Positions 15,900 through 61,827 of a stretch of 64,000 bases of DNA are shown here, one piece after another. The translations under genes and the position numbers were made by a program. The DNA is from Chryseosolibacter histidinae. Its GTDB lineage: Bacteria; Bacteroidota; Bacteroidia; Cytophagales; Cyclobacteriaceae. Positions within the stretch are counted from its first letter, which is position 1. Every line of letters starts with the position of its first letter. The stretch lies in assembly GCF_018598225.1 (NCBI RefSeq), contig NZ_JAHESF010000025.1:1-64000 (forward strand). Reading direction: 5' to 3'. The notes under the pieces were generated by a model. That model ran no database searches. It was not told the DNA's origin and worked only from the letters and a program-made list of their open reading frames with translations.

Positions 15900-15977
15900 C
15901 GCCTGCGATGATAGTTAATTTCAGATGTACGATTTATAATTTACGATTTAGGAACCGTCTTTCAATCGTAGATCCGA

Positions 15978-15995
15978 TCCCGATAACTATCGGGA
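15978..15995. repeat. TCCCGATnnnnATCGGGA palindrome, copy 1
   Basis: TCCCGATAACTATCGGGA, with 7-bp arms and a 4-nt loop, lies 15 nt before the GH31 start. Three more copies with the same arms and other loops occur at 25694, 40481 and 40510. A stutter of TACGATTTATAATTTACGATTT lies just before it (about 15927-15948). Confidence 0.75.
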
Positions 15996-25579: not shown

Positions 25580-25693
25580 ATAACTGAAGCGAGACTTGAT
25601 CACATTTATTTGCAGACGTTGTAGTGAATACAGTGTGGTTTTATCGTCTCTGAACATGAGATCCGTCAATGGAATTAAAACCCAGTCCCGCAG

Positions 25694-25711
25694 TCCCGAT
25701 AGCTATCGGGA
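25694..25711. repeat. TCCCGATnnnnATCGGGA palindrome, copy 2
   Basis: TCCCGATAGCTATCGGGA is a perfect 18-bp palindrome in the 232-nt gap between GH88 and GH105. It is preceded by a degenerate copy of its own first half (CAGTCCCGCAGTCCCGAT). Confidence 0.8.
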
Positions 25712-25722
25712 TGGCTGATGTA

Positions 25723-34466: not shown

Positions 34467-34556
34467 GTCGTCCGACCACTGATAAGCGCGCGGCCTGCGG
34501 GAAGTGGTCTGACGACTAAACTGTCAGGTTTGCAGAAAGTGGTCTGACGACTAAAC
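34467..34556. repeat. GTCGTCnGACCACT stutter repeat between convergent genes
   Basis: GTCGTCCGACCACT (34467-34480) faces AGTGGTCTGACGAC at 34503-34516 and again at 34538-34551. The GC-rich middle (GCGCGCGGCCTGCGG) would lie in the loop. The last copy provides the stop codon of the minus-strand LacI gene (TAG of TAGTCGTCAGACCACT). The same word family occurs at 61734-61784. Confidence 0.8.
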
Positions 34557-36732: not shown

Positions 36733-37545
36733 ATGGACTTTTTTTCACTTAAAGGCAAGTCTGTTATTATTACCGGAGGTACGGGAGTTCTCGGCACATC
36801 CATGACCAAAGGCGTGGCGGAAGCCGGCGCGTCAGTGGCCATCCTGGGAAGAAGAAAAGAAGTAGGAGAGAAGCTCGCAGCCGAGATAAACGCTGCGGGT
36901 GGAAAAGCGATCGCCCTCGTAGCCGATGTGCTCAACCGCGAGCAGCTGGTCAGCGCCAGGGACGCGGTTAAAAAAGCATTCGGCAGCATCGATATACTCA
37001 TTAACGCCGCCGGTGGAAATATGCCCGGAGCAGTCATTCCTCCCGACAAAAACTTTTTCGATCTCAGCATCGACGCATTTCAGCAAGTAATGGATCTCAA
37101 CCTGCTGGGTACAGTATTGCCCACACAGGTGTTCACGGAAGATATGGCCAAACAGAAAAAAGGTGTGATCATCAACATCGCCTCCATGGCCTCTTACAAA
37201 CCGCTTACCCGTGTCGTAGGATATTCCGCCGCCAAGGCTGCCGTTGAAAATTTCACGCGATGGCTGGCGGTTGAAATGGCGAAGAAGTTTGGTGAAGGCA
37301 TCCGTGTCAATGCCATCTCCCCGGGATTCTTCCTCACGGAACAAAACCGTACGCTGCTCACCAATCCCGATGGAACGTTTACCGCCCGGGGCCAGTCGGC
37401 CATCAACCAGACTCCCTTCGCAAGATTTGGAAAACCCGAAGAGCTCATCGGTACATTGGTGTGGCTCTGTTCCGATGCATCCGCTTTTGTCACCGGTGTC
37501 AACGTTCCCGTCGACGGAGGATTCACGGCTTTCGGAGGCGTATAA
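36733..37545 (+). CDS. SDR oxidoreductase, probable fructuronate reductase (UxuB-type)
   Basis: The 270-residue protein is a classical short-chain dehydrogenase: a Rossmann Gly motif GGTGVLGTSM (about residues 15-24), ILINAAGGN, the catalytic Ser of NIASMASYK, and the YSAAK Tyr-Lys pair. GVLGTSMTKGVAEAG and ILGRRKEVGEK resemble the SDR-type D-mannonate oxidoreductases of Firmicutes and Bacteroidota. The gene lies just before glucuronate isomerase, which makes its substrate. Reduction of fructuronate to mannonate is therefore likely. Reduction of the unsaturated-uronate product DEH after alginate cleavage is the alternative. Confidence 0.75.
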   Translation: MDFFSLKGKSVIITGGTGVLGTSMTKGVAEAGASVAILGRRKEVGEKLAAEINAAGGKAIALVADVLNREQLVSARDAVKKAFGSIDILINAAGGNMPGAVIPPDKNFFDLSIDAFQQVMDLNLLGTVLPTQVFTEDMAKQKKGVIINIASMASYKPLTRVVGYSAAKAAVENFTRWLAVEMAKKFGEGIRVNAISPGFFLTEQNRTLLTNPDGTFTARGQSAINQTPFARFGKPEELIGTLVWLCSDASAFVTGVNVPVDGGFTAFGGV

Positions 37546-37600
37546 GTTTAAAGTTTAAGGTTTAAAGTTTAAAGTTTAGGGAAGGTTTAAAGTTTTTAAG
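37546..37600. repeat. TTTAAAG stutter repeat between SDR and uxaC
   Basis: Six irregular copies of GTTTAAAG/TTTAAGG fill the whole gap from the SDR stop (37543-37545) to 2 nt before the uxaC start. No inverted arm is present here, but matching inverted arms flank the other end of uxaC. Confidence 0.75.
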
Positions 37601-37602
37601 GT

Positions 37603-39021
37603 ATGATAGGAACTGCGAAAGTTTTTCTGGATGACGATTTTCTGCTGAGCAATGATATCGCTGTGCAGCTTTATGAGGAGTATGCGTCTCCCATGCCCAT
37701 CGTGGATTATCACAATCATCTCTCACCGGAAGACATCGCTTCGAACCGTAAGTTCACCAACATCACGGAAGCGTGGCTGGAGGGTGACCACTACAAATGG
37801 CGGGCGATGCGCATCAACGGCGTTCCTGAAAAATACTGCACGGGCCAGGTACCACCGCTCGAGAAATTCCAGGCGTGGGCGAAAACCGTACCCTATACCA
37901 TGCGCAATCCCCTGTATCACTGGACTCACCTCGAGCTGAAAAATTATTTCGGGGTACGCAAGCTGCTCGATGAAAAAAGTGCCCGGGAGATCTATGACGA
38001 TTGCTCCGCCATGCTGAACCAGGACGACTTCAGCGTGCACGCCCTGCTGGCCAAAATGAATGTTGAAGTAGTGTGCACCACCGATGACCCCACCGATTCG
38101 CTCGAGCATCATCAGCGTTTCGCAGGCTCCGGGTCGGCGCTGAAAATGTTCCCCACCTTCAGGCCAGACAAAGCTTACGCAACGGAAGATGCCGTTGCCT
38201 ACAACGCTTACCTCGACAAGCTTTCAACAGTTTCTTCGACCGCTATCAAGAATTTTGACGACCTCATCCAGGCGCTGCAAAAAAGGATCGCTTTTTTCGA
38301 CAGCCTCGGATGCCGCGCGTCTGATCACGGACTTGAATCGCTTTATTTTGATGCGCAATCACTGGCAACAGCCCCTGCCATCTTCAAAAAGATCCGCGCA
38401 GGCGAAAACCTCGGCGCCGAAGAAAGATTGCAGCTCAGGTGTGCCGTGCTCATCAACCTCTGCAAGCTTTATCATGAGAAACGGTGGGCACAGCAGTTTC
38501 ACCTGGGCGCTATGCGCAACAACAACACGCGTATGAAACGTGCGCTGGGTGCTGATACCGGTTTCGACTCGGTAGGAGATTACCCGCAGGCAACACACAT
38601 GTCGCGGTTCTTCGATCACCTCGACAGCACAGACCAGCTCGCTAAAACGATCATCTATAACCTCAACCCGTCGCAGAATGAAGTGTTTGCCACCATGGTA
38701 GGCAACTTCAGCGATGGCTCCGTTCCCGGCAAGATCCAGTTCGGTTCGGGCTGGTGGTTCCTCGATCAGAAAGATGGTATGGAGAAGCAGATGAACACCC
38801 TCTCCAACATGGGACTGCTCTCACGCTTCGTAGGCATGGTCACGGATTCCAGGAGCTTCCTGTCATTCCCGCGCCACGAATACTTCAGGCGCATCCTCTG
38901 CAACCTGCTGGCAGAAGATATCCGCGCCGGCGAGCTCCCCGACGATCTCCCACGCATAGGGCAGATGGTGAGGGATGTGTGTTACTTTAATGCGAAGGGG
39001 TATTTTGGGTTTAAAATTTAA
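37603..39021 (+). CDS. uxaC: glucuronate (uronate) isomerase
   Basis: The 472-residue protein, the usual family length, has the UxaC signatures HNHLSPEDIASNRKFTNITE and WLEGDHYKWRAMRINGVPE near the N-terminus (metal-binding His-x-His), and GSGWWFLDQKDGMEKQM and SFPRHEYFRRILCN near the C-terminus. It converts D-glucuronate to D-fructuronate, or D-galacturonate to D-tagaturonate, in the cytosol. It provides the first step after the PUL releases hexuronate. Its last codons and stop (TTTAAAATTTAA) merge with the TTTAAAG stutter repeat. Confidence 0.95.
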   Translation: MIGTAKVFLDDDFLLSNDIAVQLYEEYASPMPIVDYHNHLSPEDIASNRKFTNITEAWLEGDHYKWRAMRINGVPEKYCTGQVPPLEKFQAWAKTVPYTMRNPLYHWTHLELKNYFGVRKLLDEKSAREIYDDCSAMLNQDDFSVHALLAKMNVEVVCTTDDPTDSLEHHQRFAGSGSALKMFPTFRPDKAYATEDAVAYNAYLDKLSTVSSTAIKNFDDLIQALQKRIAFFDSLGCRASDHGLESLYFDAQSLATAPAIFKKIRAGENLGAEERLQLRCAVLINLCKLYHEKRWAQQFHLGAMRNNNTRMKRALGADTGFDSVGDYPQATHMSRFFDHLDSTDQLAKTIIYNLNPSQNEVFATMVGNFSDGSVPGKIQFGSGWWFLDQKDGMEKQMNTLSNMGLLSRFVGMVTDSRSFLSFPRHEYFRRILCNLLAEDIRAGELPDDLPRIGQMVRDVCYFNAKGYFGFKI

Positions 39022-39127
39022 AGTTTAAAATTTAAAGTTTAAAGTTGGAGCTTTCGAATCGGTGCTGAGTTGACAAACACCGAATCTAACTTTAAACCTG
39101 AAACCTGAAACTTCTAACTTTAAACTA
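39009..39127. repeat. TTTAAAG inverted stutter repeat between convergent genes
   Basis: The left arm (39009-39046) is TTTAAAATTTAAAG words; the right arm (39087-39127) is the reverse complement set (AACTTTAAAC, CCTGAAACCTGAAAC). The left arm includes the uxaC stop and the right arm includes the stop of the minus-strand DUF4861 gene. The 40 nt between the arms are unique. Confidence 0.8.
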
Positions 39128-40294: not shown

Positions 40295-40625
40295 GAGATT
40301 ACGATACAATGATCCGTTAATATACAACGACGGATTTTTATAGCCTAACCCTGAAACGGCATCACTTTATTTCAACTAAAGTTTTCCCCATGTCGCAGGT
40401 AGTTTGAAAATGGTGTAACTTGCATCCATAGCTTGCAGGAATGAGGAGCGCCACCTCAGTTCTTGAAGGTACGAGGTACATCCCGATTCCCATCGGGATA
40501 CGAAGTAGGTCCCGATGCCAATCGGGAGGAAGGCTTTACATCGAAGCCAGTTCCTTTACCTGCTGTTGTCTCCTACTGCCTACTTTTCATGCAGGTGTTT
40601 GAAACCCCCGAATTCAACACAGACT
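40295..40625. other. 331-nt gap with repeats between divergent genes
   Basis: No gene is seen here. It holds two TCCCGATnnnnATCGGGA palindromes (40481-40498 and 40510-40527), a GTACGAGGTAC word (about 40470) and the TACTGCCTACTTTTC word (40574-40588). Promoters for both the DUF4861 gene and LacI 2 must lie here. The longer open frame from 40515 runs through these repeats and is not considered coding before 40626. Confidence 0.6.
40481..40527. repeat. two TCCCGATnnnnATCGGGA palindromes, copies 3 and 4
   Basis: TCCCGATTCCCATCGGGA (40481-40498) and TCCCGATGCCAATCGGGA (40510-40527) lie 11 nt apart. The arms equal those at 15978 and 25694; only the 4-nt loop differs (AACT, AGCT, TCCC, GCCA). Conserved arms with free loops point to selection on a hairpin or on protein binding. 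Confidence 0.8.
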
Positions 40626-43053: not shown

Positions 43054-43452
43054 ATGAAGAAAATCGTGAGTGTAGTGGCGTTCATCGCTGTGCATGCTGC
43101 CGTGCTGGCACAGTCGGCCGACAAAGCATCTATTGAAAGAGGAAAGACCGTGTATGAATCGACCTGTCTGGCCTGCCACCAGGCGGATGGGTCTGGTGTT
43201 CCGAACCTGAATCCGCCCCTGATCAAAACTAAATGGACCCTGGGTGATAAAAATCAGCTGATCAACGTTGTGCTGAAAGGCCTGGATGAAGAGATCGAAG
43301 TGGATGGCGAGACCTATCACAATGTGATGCCACCCCTGAACTACCTGTCTGACCAGGAGATCGCCGACGTGCTCACATACGTACGCAATAACTTCGGCAA
43401 CAAGGCAAGCGCTATTAAGGAAGCTGACGTTAAAGCGCTACGCGAAAAATAG
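43054..43452 (+). CDS. class I cytochrome c, single haem
   Basis: The 132-residue protein has a signal peptide (MKKIVSVVAFIAVHAAVLAQ) and one haem site, CLACH (Cys38, Cys41, His42). NVMPPLNYLSDQEIADVLTY gives the distal Met ligand. It probably accepts electrons from the sugar dehydrogenase encoded 9 nt upstream and passes them to the respiratory chain. Its stop codon (TAG) is the first word of a GTAATCAGG stutter repeat. Confidence 0.92.
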   Translation: MKKIVSVVAFIAVHAAVLAQSADKASIERGKTVYESTCLACHQADGSGVPNLNPPLIKTKWTLGDKNQLINVVLKGLDEEIEVDGETYHNVMPPLNYLSDQEIADVLTYVRNNFGNKASAIKEADVKALREK

Positions 43453-43538
43453 TAATCAGGTGATCGGTATTCAGTAATCGGTTTTAGAGCTACCCAGTTA
43501 CTGACTACCGTTTACCGATCACCTATTACCACTTACTG
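43450..43538. repeat. GTAATC/GGTGATCGG inverted stutter repeat
   Basis: The left arm (43450-43481; AGTAATCAGGTGATCGGTA) pairs with the right arm (43495-43538; TACCGATCACCTATTACCAC). Between convergent genes, the left arm includes the cytochrome c stop and the right arm includes the SusD stop (minus strand). Confidence 0.8.
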
Positions 43539-45065
43539 TCCCGCCAACGGATTGCTCTGGATCTCCACGTCAGGGATCAGGAAATACAACCGGGTAGGAT
43601 CAGGCTTGCGATTTTTGTTCTTGATCTGTGCCCGCACTTCGGAGATGAGCTGCACCGCCCTGTTGGTGCGCACCATGTCGAACCACCTCTTAGCCTCACC
43701 CATAAACTCGTATCCTCTTTCGCGGAACACCAGGTCATCGAACTGTTGCATGGATAATCCTGCGGCAAGATCTGCTGTCACACTGGGTGTATTGATGTCC
43801 ACACCATAACCACGCCTTCTTACCTTGTTGATGGCATCGTAGGCAGCAGCTGTAGGGATGCCGTTGAGCTTATTATCGGCTTCCGCGAAGATCAGCAGCA
43901 CGTCGGCATAACGATAGAAATAAAAATCATTTCCATTGCCGGTATCAATGGGGGCTTGCGGATCCTTGTACTTGCCGAAGCGCAGGTCATAGATATCGGT
44001 TTCTATTTCGGCTTTTACAACCTGGCCGTTGATCACATAGGAGTCATACAGGTTGAACCGCTTGCGCAGGTCGTTAGCATCCCAGCCGCTGATGAGCGGA
44101 GCTTTGGAGATGGCGCCACCGAACTTGTTTCCACTCACTGAAAAACCTGCAGCCTTCGCTCTCGAATCGGCATAATAGGAAGCCAGGAATGCGCCCTGGT
44201 CGATGGCCTGTGAGAACTTCAGCGAGAAAACATCTTCGGCGTTTGTGGGCAGCACGGGTGAGTACAGTGTTTCCAGCGACGTGATCAGGTCGTAGCCATA
44301 CGTTGCCTTTGCATCCATCACTTCTTTCGCTTTGTCGCGTGCTTGCTGGTAATAGGTTGTGCCACCATTCAGCGGAGCACCGGCCATGGTCAGGTACACG
44401 TCTGCCAATGCAACCTTGGCAGCTCCTTTTGTGGCGCGTCCGGCCATAGACGAAGGCACCGTGTTAGGCAGTACACCTTCCGCGAAAGAAAGGTCGGCCA
44501 CGATCTGCGCATAGACGTCGGGTATTTCCGTCAGCGGGATGCTGGTGTTTTCAGTATCCGTGATGGGCGTGAGGCGCAGGGGAACCTTGCCGAAGGTGCG
44601 CACAGCGAAGTAATAGCACAGGGCACGTACGAAACGCGCTTCCCCGTAAGCGGCATCTTTTAAGGTGGCACTGAGGTTCTGATCTTTGTCCAGCGCATCG
44701 ATCAGCACATTGGCGCGCCCTATCGCCTCATACAAGGTGATCCAGGGTTGGTTCATGCTGGTGTTGGTAGTGCTCAGCAGGTTGGCGTAGTTGCTCCACG
44801 ATACCTGGCTGCCGCCACCGTCTGCATATTCGGCCATGAGCTCGAAGCCCAGGCCAACCGTTGATTCCCACAAACGTCCGCGGCTGCGGGTCATGGGCTC
44901 ATAAACACCGATGATGGTCTGCTCCAGCAAACCTGGATTGAGGTTCTCGAGGAAATCCTGCTCCAGTGCCTTGGGATCTTCTTCGAGAAGGTCGTCGCAG
45001 CCTGTGAAATTGAACGCCACCAGCGTGAGGGCGATCAACATTCCATATATTCTGGTTCGTTTCAT
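43533..45065 (-). CDS. SusD-family glycan-binding lipoprotein (PUL 3)
   Basis: The 510-residue protein has a lipoprotein signal (MKRTRIYGMLIALTLVAFNF, then TGC) and the SusD features DLLEEDPKALEQDFLENLN and DDLVFRERGYEFMGEAKRWF. It lies 18 nt downstream of its SusC. No CAZyme follows, since the next genes downstream are on the other strand. It is part of a minimal SusCD pair. Confidence 0.95.
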   Translation of the reverse strand: MKRTRIYGMLIALTLVAFNFTGCDDLLEEDPKALEQDFLENLNPGLLEQTIIGVYEPMTRSRGRLWESTVGLGFELMAEYADGGGSQVSWSNYANLLSTTNTSMNQPWITLYEAIGRANVLIDALDKDQNLSATLKDAAYGEARFVRALCYYFAVRTFGKVPLRLTPITDTENTSIPLTEIPDVYAQIVADLSFAEGVLPNTVPSSMAGRATKGAAKVALADVYLTMAGAPLNGGTTYYQQARDKAKEVMDAKATYGYDLITSLETLYSPVLPTNAEDVFSLKFSQAIDQGAFLASYYADSRAKAAGFSVSGNKFGGAISKAPLISGWDANDLRKRFNLYDSYVINGQVVKAEIETDIYDLRFGKYKDPQAPIDTGNGNDFYFYRYADVLLIFAEADNKLNGIPTAAAYDAINKVRRRGYGVDINTPSVTADLAAGLSMQQFDDLVFRERGYEFMGEAKRWFDMVRTNRAVQLISEVRAQIKNKNRKPDPTRLYFLIPDVEIQSNPLAGQ

Positions 45066-51930: not shown

Positions 51931-52020
51931 GTACGAGGTTAGAGGTACGAATGTGAAGGTACGAGGTACGAAATACGAGGTACGAGCCCACGTACTTCGT
52001 ACCTCGTACCTCGTACTTTT
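51931..52020. repeat. GTACGAGGTACGA hairpin between ABC genes
   Basis: The left arm (51931-51985) holds six TACGAGG/TACGAAAT words. The right arm (51991-52020) is the reverse complement (GTACTTCGTACCTCGTAC) and ends in a T run. It starts at the stop codon of the ABC ATPase and spans most of the gap to the permease gene; the plus strand would read it as a terminator-like stem followed by TTTTTT. Confidence 0.8.
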
Positions 52021-52911
52021 TTACGATTCTGCCAGTATTTCGAGAAATTGCTTTTCAAGGCTTTTCTTTTTGGTAACGAGGTGTGAAGCAACAATACCTT
52101 TTTCAAAAAGGAACTGGTTCAGGTCTTTACTTTTGAAGCCATCGCGCAGGGATACCTGGAAGCTTCCGTTCTCGCGGTTGATAGAAGAAGTGCCGGCGAA
52201 CGAAAGCAGGATCTCGTTGAGGTTGCTCACGTCTGCATTCACCTCCACGGTATCGGTGCCTTTGCCAACCTCGTCCACGGGACCCGTATGGATCAACGAA
52301 CCTTTCTTCAGTACTGCGAAATGAGTACAAACCTTTTGCACTTCATCCAGCAGGTGGCTGGCCAGAATAATGGTTTTTCCCTGGACGGCGATCTTGCGGA
52401 TCAGCTCACGGATCTCCGCGATGCCCATGGGGTCGAGCCCGTTGGTGGGTTCATCCAGGATCAGCACGGTGGGGTCGTTGAGCAGCGCGGAGGCAATAGC
52501 CAGGCGTTGCTTCATACCCAGAGAGTAGGTTCTGTATTTGTCGTTCCTGCGTTCAGTCAGCTCCACCAGCTCGAGTACCCGCGGGATGCTGGCGGGATCG
52601 CATTGTTTGATCATACAATTGAGCTCGAGGTTCTTCTGGCCATTCAGGTACGGATAGAATATCGGGTGTTCCAGCACGGCGCCGATCTTTTTCCTGACGT
52701 GGTGGCTGGGCGTTTCGCCAAACCAGCTGTACGTTCCGGAAGTAGGATTCACCACGCTCATGAGCATGCCTAGCGTGGTGGTCTTTCCGCTTCCGTTCGG
52801 CCCCAGCATGCCAAATACCTGGCCTGCCTTGACTTCGAGGTTGAGATTGTTAACAGCCTTTATGCGGCCGAAATGTTTGGTGAGATTTGAGATCGAGAGA
52901 ACCGTTTCCAC
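52021..52911 (-). CDS. ABC transporter ATP-binding protein
   Basis: The 296-residue protein has Walker A (GPNGSGKTT), the signature (YSLGMKQRLAIASAL), Walker B (VLILDEPTNGLDP) and the switch His (ILASHLLDEVQKVC). It is of the type that pairs with ABC-2 permeases in lantibiotic/multidrug or lipid export. It lies upstream of the permease in the same direction. Its stop codon is followed at once by the stutter hairpin. Substrate not predictable. Confidence 0.92.
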   Translation of the reverse strand: METVLSISNLTKHFGRIKAVNNLNLEVKAGQVFGMLGPNGSGKTTTLGMLMSVVNPTSGTYSWFGETPSHHVRKKIGAVLEHPIFYPYLNGQKNLELNCMIKQCDPASIPRVLELVELTERRNDKYRTYSLGMKQRLAIASALLNDPTVLILDEPTNGLDPMGIAEIRELIRKIAVQGKTIILASHLLDEVQKVCTHFAVLKKGSLIHTGPVDEVGKGTDTVEVNADVSNLNEILLSFAGTSSINRENGSFQVSLRDGFKSKDLNQFLFEKGIVASHLVTKKKSLEKQFLEILAES

Positions 52912-59763: not shown

Positions 59764-59813
59764 AACTTACGTTAGCAAGTGACTTGGCCTGTGTTATCGT
59801 GAAGTGTGTGGTT

Positions 59814-59947
59814 AGTCCACAGTCGACGGTCCACAGACGTACAGCATTGATTCAAGAGTTTATTGGAACAATAGAGACGTGAATAGTGCTCGATCCAGTT
59901 GACGTTGCACCACCCGGCCGTGGTCTGTCGACTGTGGACCGTGGACT
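59814..59947. repeat. AGTCCACAGTCGAC inverted stutter repeat
   Basis: The left arm (59814-59838) and right arm (59923-59947) are 25 nt each and contain the words AGTCCAC, GTCGAC and GGTCCACAG in different order. They flank about 84 nt of unique sequence between convergent genes (stops 59763 and 59961). A single arm of the same word lies at 48285. Confidence 0.8.
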
Positions 59948-60482: not shown

Positions 60483-60534
60483 CTTTGCGCTTCCTAAGCT
60501 GTTTTTCTTTATCTTTCTTTGGGGGCTAAATTAA

Positions 60535-60618
60535 CCAGGATTAATCAGGATTAATAGATTTTCAGGATTAACAGGATTGTGACCAGGATTATTAGGATTT
60601 GTAGGATTAACAGGATTG
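60535..60618. repeat. AGGATTAA stutter repeat
   Basis: Eight or so copies of CAGGATTAA/AGGATT lie in tandem, with the spacers TCAGGATTAATAGATTTTC and TGTGACC. Its reverse complement (AATCCTGTTAATCCTG) is the word that encodes the GH95 signal peptide at 11293. It lies upstream of the DUF2007 gene, between divergent genes. Confidence 0.85.
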
Positions 60619-61657: not shown

Positions 61658-61660
61658 AAA

Positions 61661-61827
61661 TAGTCCATGGTCCATGGTCGATAGTCCATGGACGGTGGTG
61701 TAAATTCAACACTTTCTCCTCTTTTGAAGATTAGTCGTCAGTCCACTGCGCACAGGGCTTAGCGCCCGGCAGTGGTCCGACGACTGCTGTGTCCTGCTAT
61801 GGACTATGGACCATCGACTATCGACTG
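61661..61827. repeat. nested stutter repeat between convergent genes
   Basis: Two word families are nested. The outer arms, 61661-61692 (TAGTCCATGGTCCATGG) and 61797-61827 (CTATGGACTATGGACCATCG), pair imperfectly. The inner arms, GTCGTCAGTCCACTG (61734-61748) and CAGTGGTCCGACGAC (61770-61784), enclose a GC-rich loop with GGGCTTAGCGCCC. The inner family matches 34467-34556. Confidence 0.85.

Follow-up and report, generated by a model that had tools for sequence, protein, structure and literature searches.

Why do two genes that converge on each other both end inside a repeat, and what kind of element is that repeat? In the 64,000-nt stretch of Chryseosolibacter histidinae DNA analysed here (henceforth the window), a cytochrome c gene (43054-43452, plus strand; Pfam PF00034, 3.5e-14) ends within the left arm of an inverted repeat, and a SusD family gene (43533-45065, minus strand; Pfam PF07980, 4.8e-23) ends within its right arm. 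Specifically, the 80-nt gap between them is a single imperfect palindrome of 7-nt words (43451-43537), whose outermost words each include the stop codon of one gene; the surrounding sequence (43440-43550) reads ...GAAAAATAGTAATCAGGTGATCGGTATTCAGTAATCGG...ACCGATCACCTATTACCACTTACTG. The left arm (43451-43485, plus strand; delimited by inverted-repeat and hairpin evidence) consists of AGTAATC, GGTGATC, GGTATTC, AGTAATC and GGTTTT, and begins within the cytochrome c TAG (43450-43452, plus strand), which provides the AG of the first heptad. The right arm (43498-43537, minus strand) is made of minus-strand words of the same family (AGTAAGT, GGTAATA, GGTGATC, GGTAAAC, GGTAGTC and AGTAACT) and holds the SusD TAA (43533-43535, minus strand), the heptad AGTAAGT being built from the CAG-TAA of that gene. 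The loop (43486-43497) is approximate, with blurred edges, and minimum-energy folds pair slightly different bases. The first-pass annotation of this DNA had placed both stops inside repeat arms, and the placement proved correct to the nucleotide. The arms showed strong RNA folding on both strands (z -4.3 and -5.8), and the 106-nt site, used as a query, found 74 matches in the genome at E <= 10, many of them matching both strands. The palindrome belongs to a class of heptad palindromes that is scattered through this genome and specific to it.

The extent of this class was assessed in 12 contig stretches totalling 1.66 Mb of the 8.04-Mb genome (about a fifth), in which genes were called within the analysis from codon usage and are not curated. 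Arrays were detected by self-similarity at shifts of 4-15 nt, with a detector tuned on no family; the contigs were picked partly for matches to the query element, such that density is possibly slightly raised. Intergenic DNA in this sample contained 326 arrays of period 7, compared with 0 in dinucleotide-preserving shuffles, 224 arrays of period 14 (a multiple of 7) and 1-30 of every other period. There were 338 arrays in total, of which 5 were wholly genic and 67 overlapped a gene end; extrapolated to the whole genome, this gives approximately 1,600 arrays.

The arrays are built from several families of words (GTTGCC/GTTACC, GTCCAC/GTCGAC/GTCCAT, GTACGA/ATACGA, GTTTAA/GTTTCA/GTTTGA, GTAATC/GTATTC/GTGATC and AGGAGT/AGGAGC) that follow the consensus RGTNNNN, with few variants per family and about four words per arm. 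RGT on one strand was found in 89% of array words versus 42% expected from shuffled letters, a figure that is descriptive because RGT was first spotted in these same data. The order of the parts is fixed, i.e., 5'-(RGTNNNN)n-loop-(NNNNACY)n-3', with RGT reading inward on both strands: among gaps with two arrays, the one carrying RGT on the plus strand came first and the minus-strand one second in 75 cases, and the reverse order was found in about one. Array length peaks at 28-34 nt, or four units (167/338). Whole elements span 60-165 bp, and their loops are typical of the family: the GTTTAA, GTACGA and GTAATC families have short ones (~10-35 nt), the GTTGCC and GTCCA families long ones (~55-110 nt). 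Some arrays are half-elements, and some elements lie in divergent gaps.

What the arms enclose is mostly specific to the locus. With arrays masked, 57 of 71 centres had no second match in the 1.66 Mb, two centres from the window had no significant second copy in the whole 8-Mb genome, and centres were structurally no more stable than shuffled sequences (mean z -0.36). Folding energies of the arms are about -22 to -37 kcal/mol, and any two arms of one family pair well. Complementarity between arms of the same element was no higher than with arms of other elements (and lower in the AATC family), and swapped arms folded equally well or better. The sole positive result for within-element matching, in the TCCA group (p = 0.018), is confounded because the CAC and CAT subfamilies were pooled in it. 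Given that arms are not best matched within their own element, covariation gives no sign of a conserved stem.

Some elements elsewhere in the genome have a more complicated make-up. The centres at C122:13855-14120, C122:128690-129081, C45:380455 and C28:61764-62172 bear another dispersed repeat (~100-300 bp, 72-93% identical), i.e., they are composite or nested repeats. At C35:55195-55345, C21:63570-63795 and C67:99690-99935 different word families are nested or adjoining, and one of the loops contains a canonical terminator.

We then considered position relative to genes. Arrays overlapped 63 stops and 4 starts in the 1.66 Mb, compared with 16 +/- 3.5 stops and 7 +/- 2.4 starts when each was placed at random in its own gap with 4 nt of overlap allowed. 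Under a laxer null, in which arrays may reach 25 nt into genes, ~56 overlaps with stops and 30 with starts are expected, meaning that stop overlap alone is weak evidence. The signal is instead the anchoring of arrays 0-10 nt past stops, together with their near absence from starts and coding DNA. Specifically, at a cut-off of 10 nt, 147 arrays were close to a stop, compared with 52 +/- 6 under the null, and 24 were close to a start, compared with 27 +/- 4. Where co-directional genes left at least 60 nt of free room between them, 32 of 44 paired elements began within 10 nt after the upstream stop and 1 of 44 lay within 10 nt of the next start, the median distances being 3 nt and 110 nt, respectively. 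Occupancy also differed with gap orientation: arrays were present in 43% of convergent versus 15% of divergent gaps overall, and among gaps of 100-150 nt the figures were 65% for convergent, 24% for co-directional and 0% for divergent ones.

Considering the 250 gene ends with an array in the adjoining gap, 38 (e.g., uxaC) obtain their stop and last residues from the array, which begins more than 3 nt upstream of the stop's end; the overlap is 1-3 nt in another 26, the array begins 0-10 nt later in 82, and it lies at 11-30 nt in 24 and beyond 30 nt in 80. Stop overlap, seen at about a quarter of array-flanked gene ends, thus follows from the closeness of elements to stops. The first-pass annotation had suggested that such repeats target or arise at gene ends and had proposed tabulating them against distance to the nearest stop and against shuffles. 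As a statement about position this is borne out, with strong genome-wide enrichment at stops and no even spread over gaps. The stops inside words from which it started are real, and they are mostly a by-product of proximity (38 and 26 of the 250 gene ends).

The window itself contains several further cases. Besides the cytochrome c and SusD genes, four genes had been named as ending in repeat words, and Pfam agrees with each identification (UxaC, DUF4861, LacI and an EgtD-type methyltransferase). The convergent uxaC (stop 39019-39021) and DUF4861 (stop 39125-39127) genes do have their stops in the arms of a GTTTAAA palindrome (39009-39127), the left array of which extends into the final uxaC codons. 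For the other two the picture is more mixed: the egtD stop lies within AGTAAGC, a weak single arm, and the LacI stop lies within AGTCGTCAGACCACT, a REP-like palindrome distinct from the heptad arrays. The list of six genes stands, with a seventh having been overlooked, namely a short-chain dehydrogenase whose TAA (37543-37545) is overlapped by a plus-strand GTTTAAA array (37544-37578).

Other word families occur in the window as well. A GTTGCC-family palindrome lies between divergent genes (735-879); searched in full, it had 58 other matches in the genome, nearly all confined to the arms, and its centre (766-854) had no significant match elsewhere. The same is true of the centre of a GTCCAC/GTCGAC-family palindrome between convergent genes (59813-59947). 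A GTACGAG-family palindrome (51931-52016) ends 4 nt from the stop of the gene at 52021-52911, and a GTCCAT-family palindrome (61660-61826) fills a convergent gap up to 2-3 nt from the stop on either side and has an AGTCGTC REP-like palindrome nested at its centre.

This REP-like family, AGTCGTCNGACCACT...AGTGGTCNGACGACT, is separate from the heptad arrays. It occurs at 34467-34552, where the last copy contains the LacI TAG (34551-34553), at 61733-61785 and also at C28:98418-98470. Allowing up to 2 mismatches, it had 82 matches in the 1.66 Mb (38 in shuffled sequence), 29 of them within 30 nt of a stop and 3 within 30 nt of a start, and it terminates in CGTC-like letters (compare the CGTC-tagged REPs in PMC3733652). 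Recurring short TCCCGATNNNNATCGGGA-type palindromes were found near gene borders at 40470-40527, 15924-15990 and 25683-25715, sometimes adjoining heptad words, and a degenerate 9/18-nt tandem repeat, ATTAACAGG, whose period is unlike that of the heptads, lies between divergent genes at 60530-60618.

The words are largely private to this genome. The GTTRCC (TTGCC) pattern has 294 occurrences here, none in 58 relatives (two congeners among them), and 1-4 copies in 7 of 394 other Bacteroidota; GTCSAY was found 514 times here and at most 6 times in five relatives. One congener (G002) has heptad arrays of other words (GCTTGCA, ATTTTAG and GTTCCAG) at lower density and with a weak stop bias (12/40 versus 4/24), arrays are almost absent from the other (G001), and samples of 80 kb from three more relatives held none or one. 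SusD and cytochrome c matches in the two congeners are 33-43% identical, too diverged for a comparison of orthologous sites. The best uxaC match (71%) is in a Cyclobacteriaceae MAG, which suggests a place in the Cytophagales. Among 80 uxaC loci of named Bacteroidota, several genera had heptad arrays, some directly behind uxaC. At four loci from different genera (L139, L179, L192 and L199) arrays of different words sit at the uxaC 3' end, as in the window. When the loci of the 80 other Bacteroidota were pooled, arrays were no nearer to stops than to starts (12/54 versus 15/58), meaning that stop anchoring is demonstrated for this genome and not for the phylum.

A speculative and rather doubtful extension is that some process encloses locus-specific DNA right behind stops in palindromic arms of four heptads, whatever the word. 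The lexicon would then vary by species under a constant grammar (7-nt unit, four units, inward RGT and stop anchoring), and recognition would depend on how many heptads there are and how they are spaced, not on the word or on a G-quadruplex.

As to what the elements might do, the reading towards which we lean, by a little, is that they form a stem in the 3' UTR that would act directly behind the ribosome as it terminates, or shield the 3' end, and that both genes of a convergent pair share a single palindrome. Elements lie directly past the stops of genes that end transcription units, and each would be transcribed within the 3' UTR, giving a stable stem just past the terminating ribosome. Words such as GTTTAAA or AGTAATC would supply or include the stop, which falls inside a word because the element begins at, or slightly upstream of, the gene end; a single copy could serve two convergent genes because the palindrome reads alike on both strands. 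The likeliest effect would be REP-like, with the stem blocking 3'-to-5' decay or affecting translation termination or release, rather than that of an intrinsic terminator with a U-tract. In E. coli, REPs near stop codons affect translation. What the analysis shows is the position, the polarity and the folding potential; that the elements are transcribed, help to form 3' ends or alter expression is our inference.

The main rival explanation, to which we give a minority chance, is that these are selfish or neutral REP/MITE-like non-autonomous insertions surviving where they are least harmful (after stops and in convergent gaps), in which case their position would reflect selection against damage and not function. 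High copy number, families nearly missing from the congeners, the nesting of one family in another and depletion from coding and divergent regions are all consistent with it. Harm avoidance does not account for the unused, equally harmless sites further downstream, given that 32 of 44 elements lie within 10 nt of a stop despite the room available. The genome also has only 4 Y1-transposase genes, just 1 with an array nearby, and the centres are not copied as those of a transposed unit would be (57 of 71 unique in 1.66 Mb, and the two window centres unique in 8 Mb).

That the palindromes are unusual, U-tract-free transcription terminators for both convergent genes appears to us quite improbable. 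Elements do occur at the ends of transcription units, the hairpin at 43451-43537 is strong on both strands, the SusD-side transcript would reach UAUUUUU after the stem, as read from the site sequence, and transcripts start or stop more often at the G-quadruplex-capable repeats of Xanthomonas (Rehm et al., PMC4692102). Canonical terminators, moreover, were found in 8% of convergent gaps with arrays versus 24% of those without, as though elements replaced them; this apparent effect disappeared after gap-length control (8/80 versus 7/54, p = 0.59), the deficit being due to gap length. There was also no general U-tract past the distal arm (T-run in 13% versus 9% at random, n = 55), and a canonical terminator sits inside one element (C35:55195). 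The earlier suggestion of 3' processing or termination signals is thus unproven, termination being unsupported and its intrinsic-terminator version weakened by all three observations.

An equally improbable account is in-situ replication slippage and template switching at a pre-existing quasi-palindrome, with functionless repeats piling up in unconstrained 3' sequence: it fits constant-period tandem units, degenerate copies and locus-specific centres (and heptamer over-representation has been attributed to polymerase slippage, as discussed in PMC4692102), but independent slippage should yield locus-specific words, whereas a few words recur at hundreds of loci with arms fixed at about four units and family-typical loops, and templated copying of arms predicts the best match within an element, which own-element arms do not show.

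Several known identities were also considered and rejected. A RAYT-mobilised REP would have to rely on 4 Y1_Tnp genes in 8 Mb, with an array near one only; a REP stem-loop with a GTAG or CGTC tag does not match arms that are heptad arrays of differing words around unique centres; and a MITE or other transposed unit would have a shared interior, when 57 of 71 centres are unique in the 1.66 Mb. Rfam gave no match in the window and three loci, and for comparing paralogous gene ends that have and lack an element the genome offered just two pairs of similar ends, one of them informative. The negative results on terminators, REPs, Rfam and covariation rest on limited data and are not proof of a lack of function.

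Heptad repeats have been seen before. The STRR heptanucleotide repeats of heterocystous cyanobacteria, reportedly described by Mazel and colleagues in 1990, are similar in being degenerate 7-nt tandem repeats with several words per genome; to our knowledge, inverted pairing and stop anchoring have not been described for them as such. The closest precedent is the heptamer repeats of Xanthomonas (GGGAATC) and Nostoc (GGGGA(C/T)T), for which G-quadruplexes were proposed and no function was found (Rehm et al. 2015, PMC4692102). These are dispersed, intergenic, degenerate 7-nt units, preferably four, at ~185 per genome, with 70-75 inverted convergent pairs per genome; they are rare in genes and between divergent ORFs, lie 0-50 bp from the stop on the coding strand, sometimes over it, and have no tie to mobile elements (PMC4692102). 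Our arrays share with them the dispersed, degenerate intergenic unit, the preference for four, the inverted convergent pairs, the stop proximity with occasional stop overlap, the scarcity in genes and divergent gaps and the lack of a tie to mobile elements. By contrast, they comprise at least six word families in one genome, obey the RGT grammar and are about five times as dense (338 in 1.66 Mb versus ~185 per genome); their anchoring was measured at 0-10 nt, their loops are typical of the family and their centres are unique. G-rich words of the quadruplex type were not found either: 0 of 338 arrays had four GGG runs on one strand. As several unrelated words without four GGG runs share unit number and position, the G-quadruplex reading is not transferable here, although weaker two-tetrad quadruplexes may form, four GG runs being present in 211 of 338 arrays.

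Two other systems are less similar. The TAACTGA heptamer repeats of Bacteroidetes, Cyanobacteria and Beggiatoaceae (MacGregor 2015, PMC4679880) are likewise intergenic arrays, and their reverse-complement register AGTTATC fits RGTNNNN; they differ in having one word and being mostly direct, with a single indirect repeat reported, and in lying just upstream of Beggiatoaceae starts. REP/BIME sequences (Di Nocera et al. 2013, PMC3733652) are dispersed extragenic palindromes, often in 3' UTRs, that are thought to form RNA hairpins and are associated with RAYT transposases. They measure 20-40 bp and share a conserved stem-loop tagged with GTAG or CGTC, whereas the elements described here are 60-165 bp long, with heptad arms, non-conserved centres and no RAYT link found. 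New in this genome are the at least six words, none with four GGG runs and almost absent from relatives, in arms set around mostly locus-unique centres.

Heptamer repeats have been seen in several phyla, and for the four-unit rule in Xanthomonas and Nostoc the G-quadruplex is the main proposal. In this genome, AT-rich or mixed words without GGG runs nevertheless come in units of four, in inverted pairs and close to stops, which speaks against G-quadruplexes as a general explanation. With approximately 1,600 arrays, the genome is a convenient one in which to test the 3'-end hypothesis.
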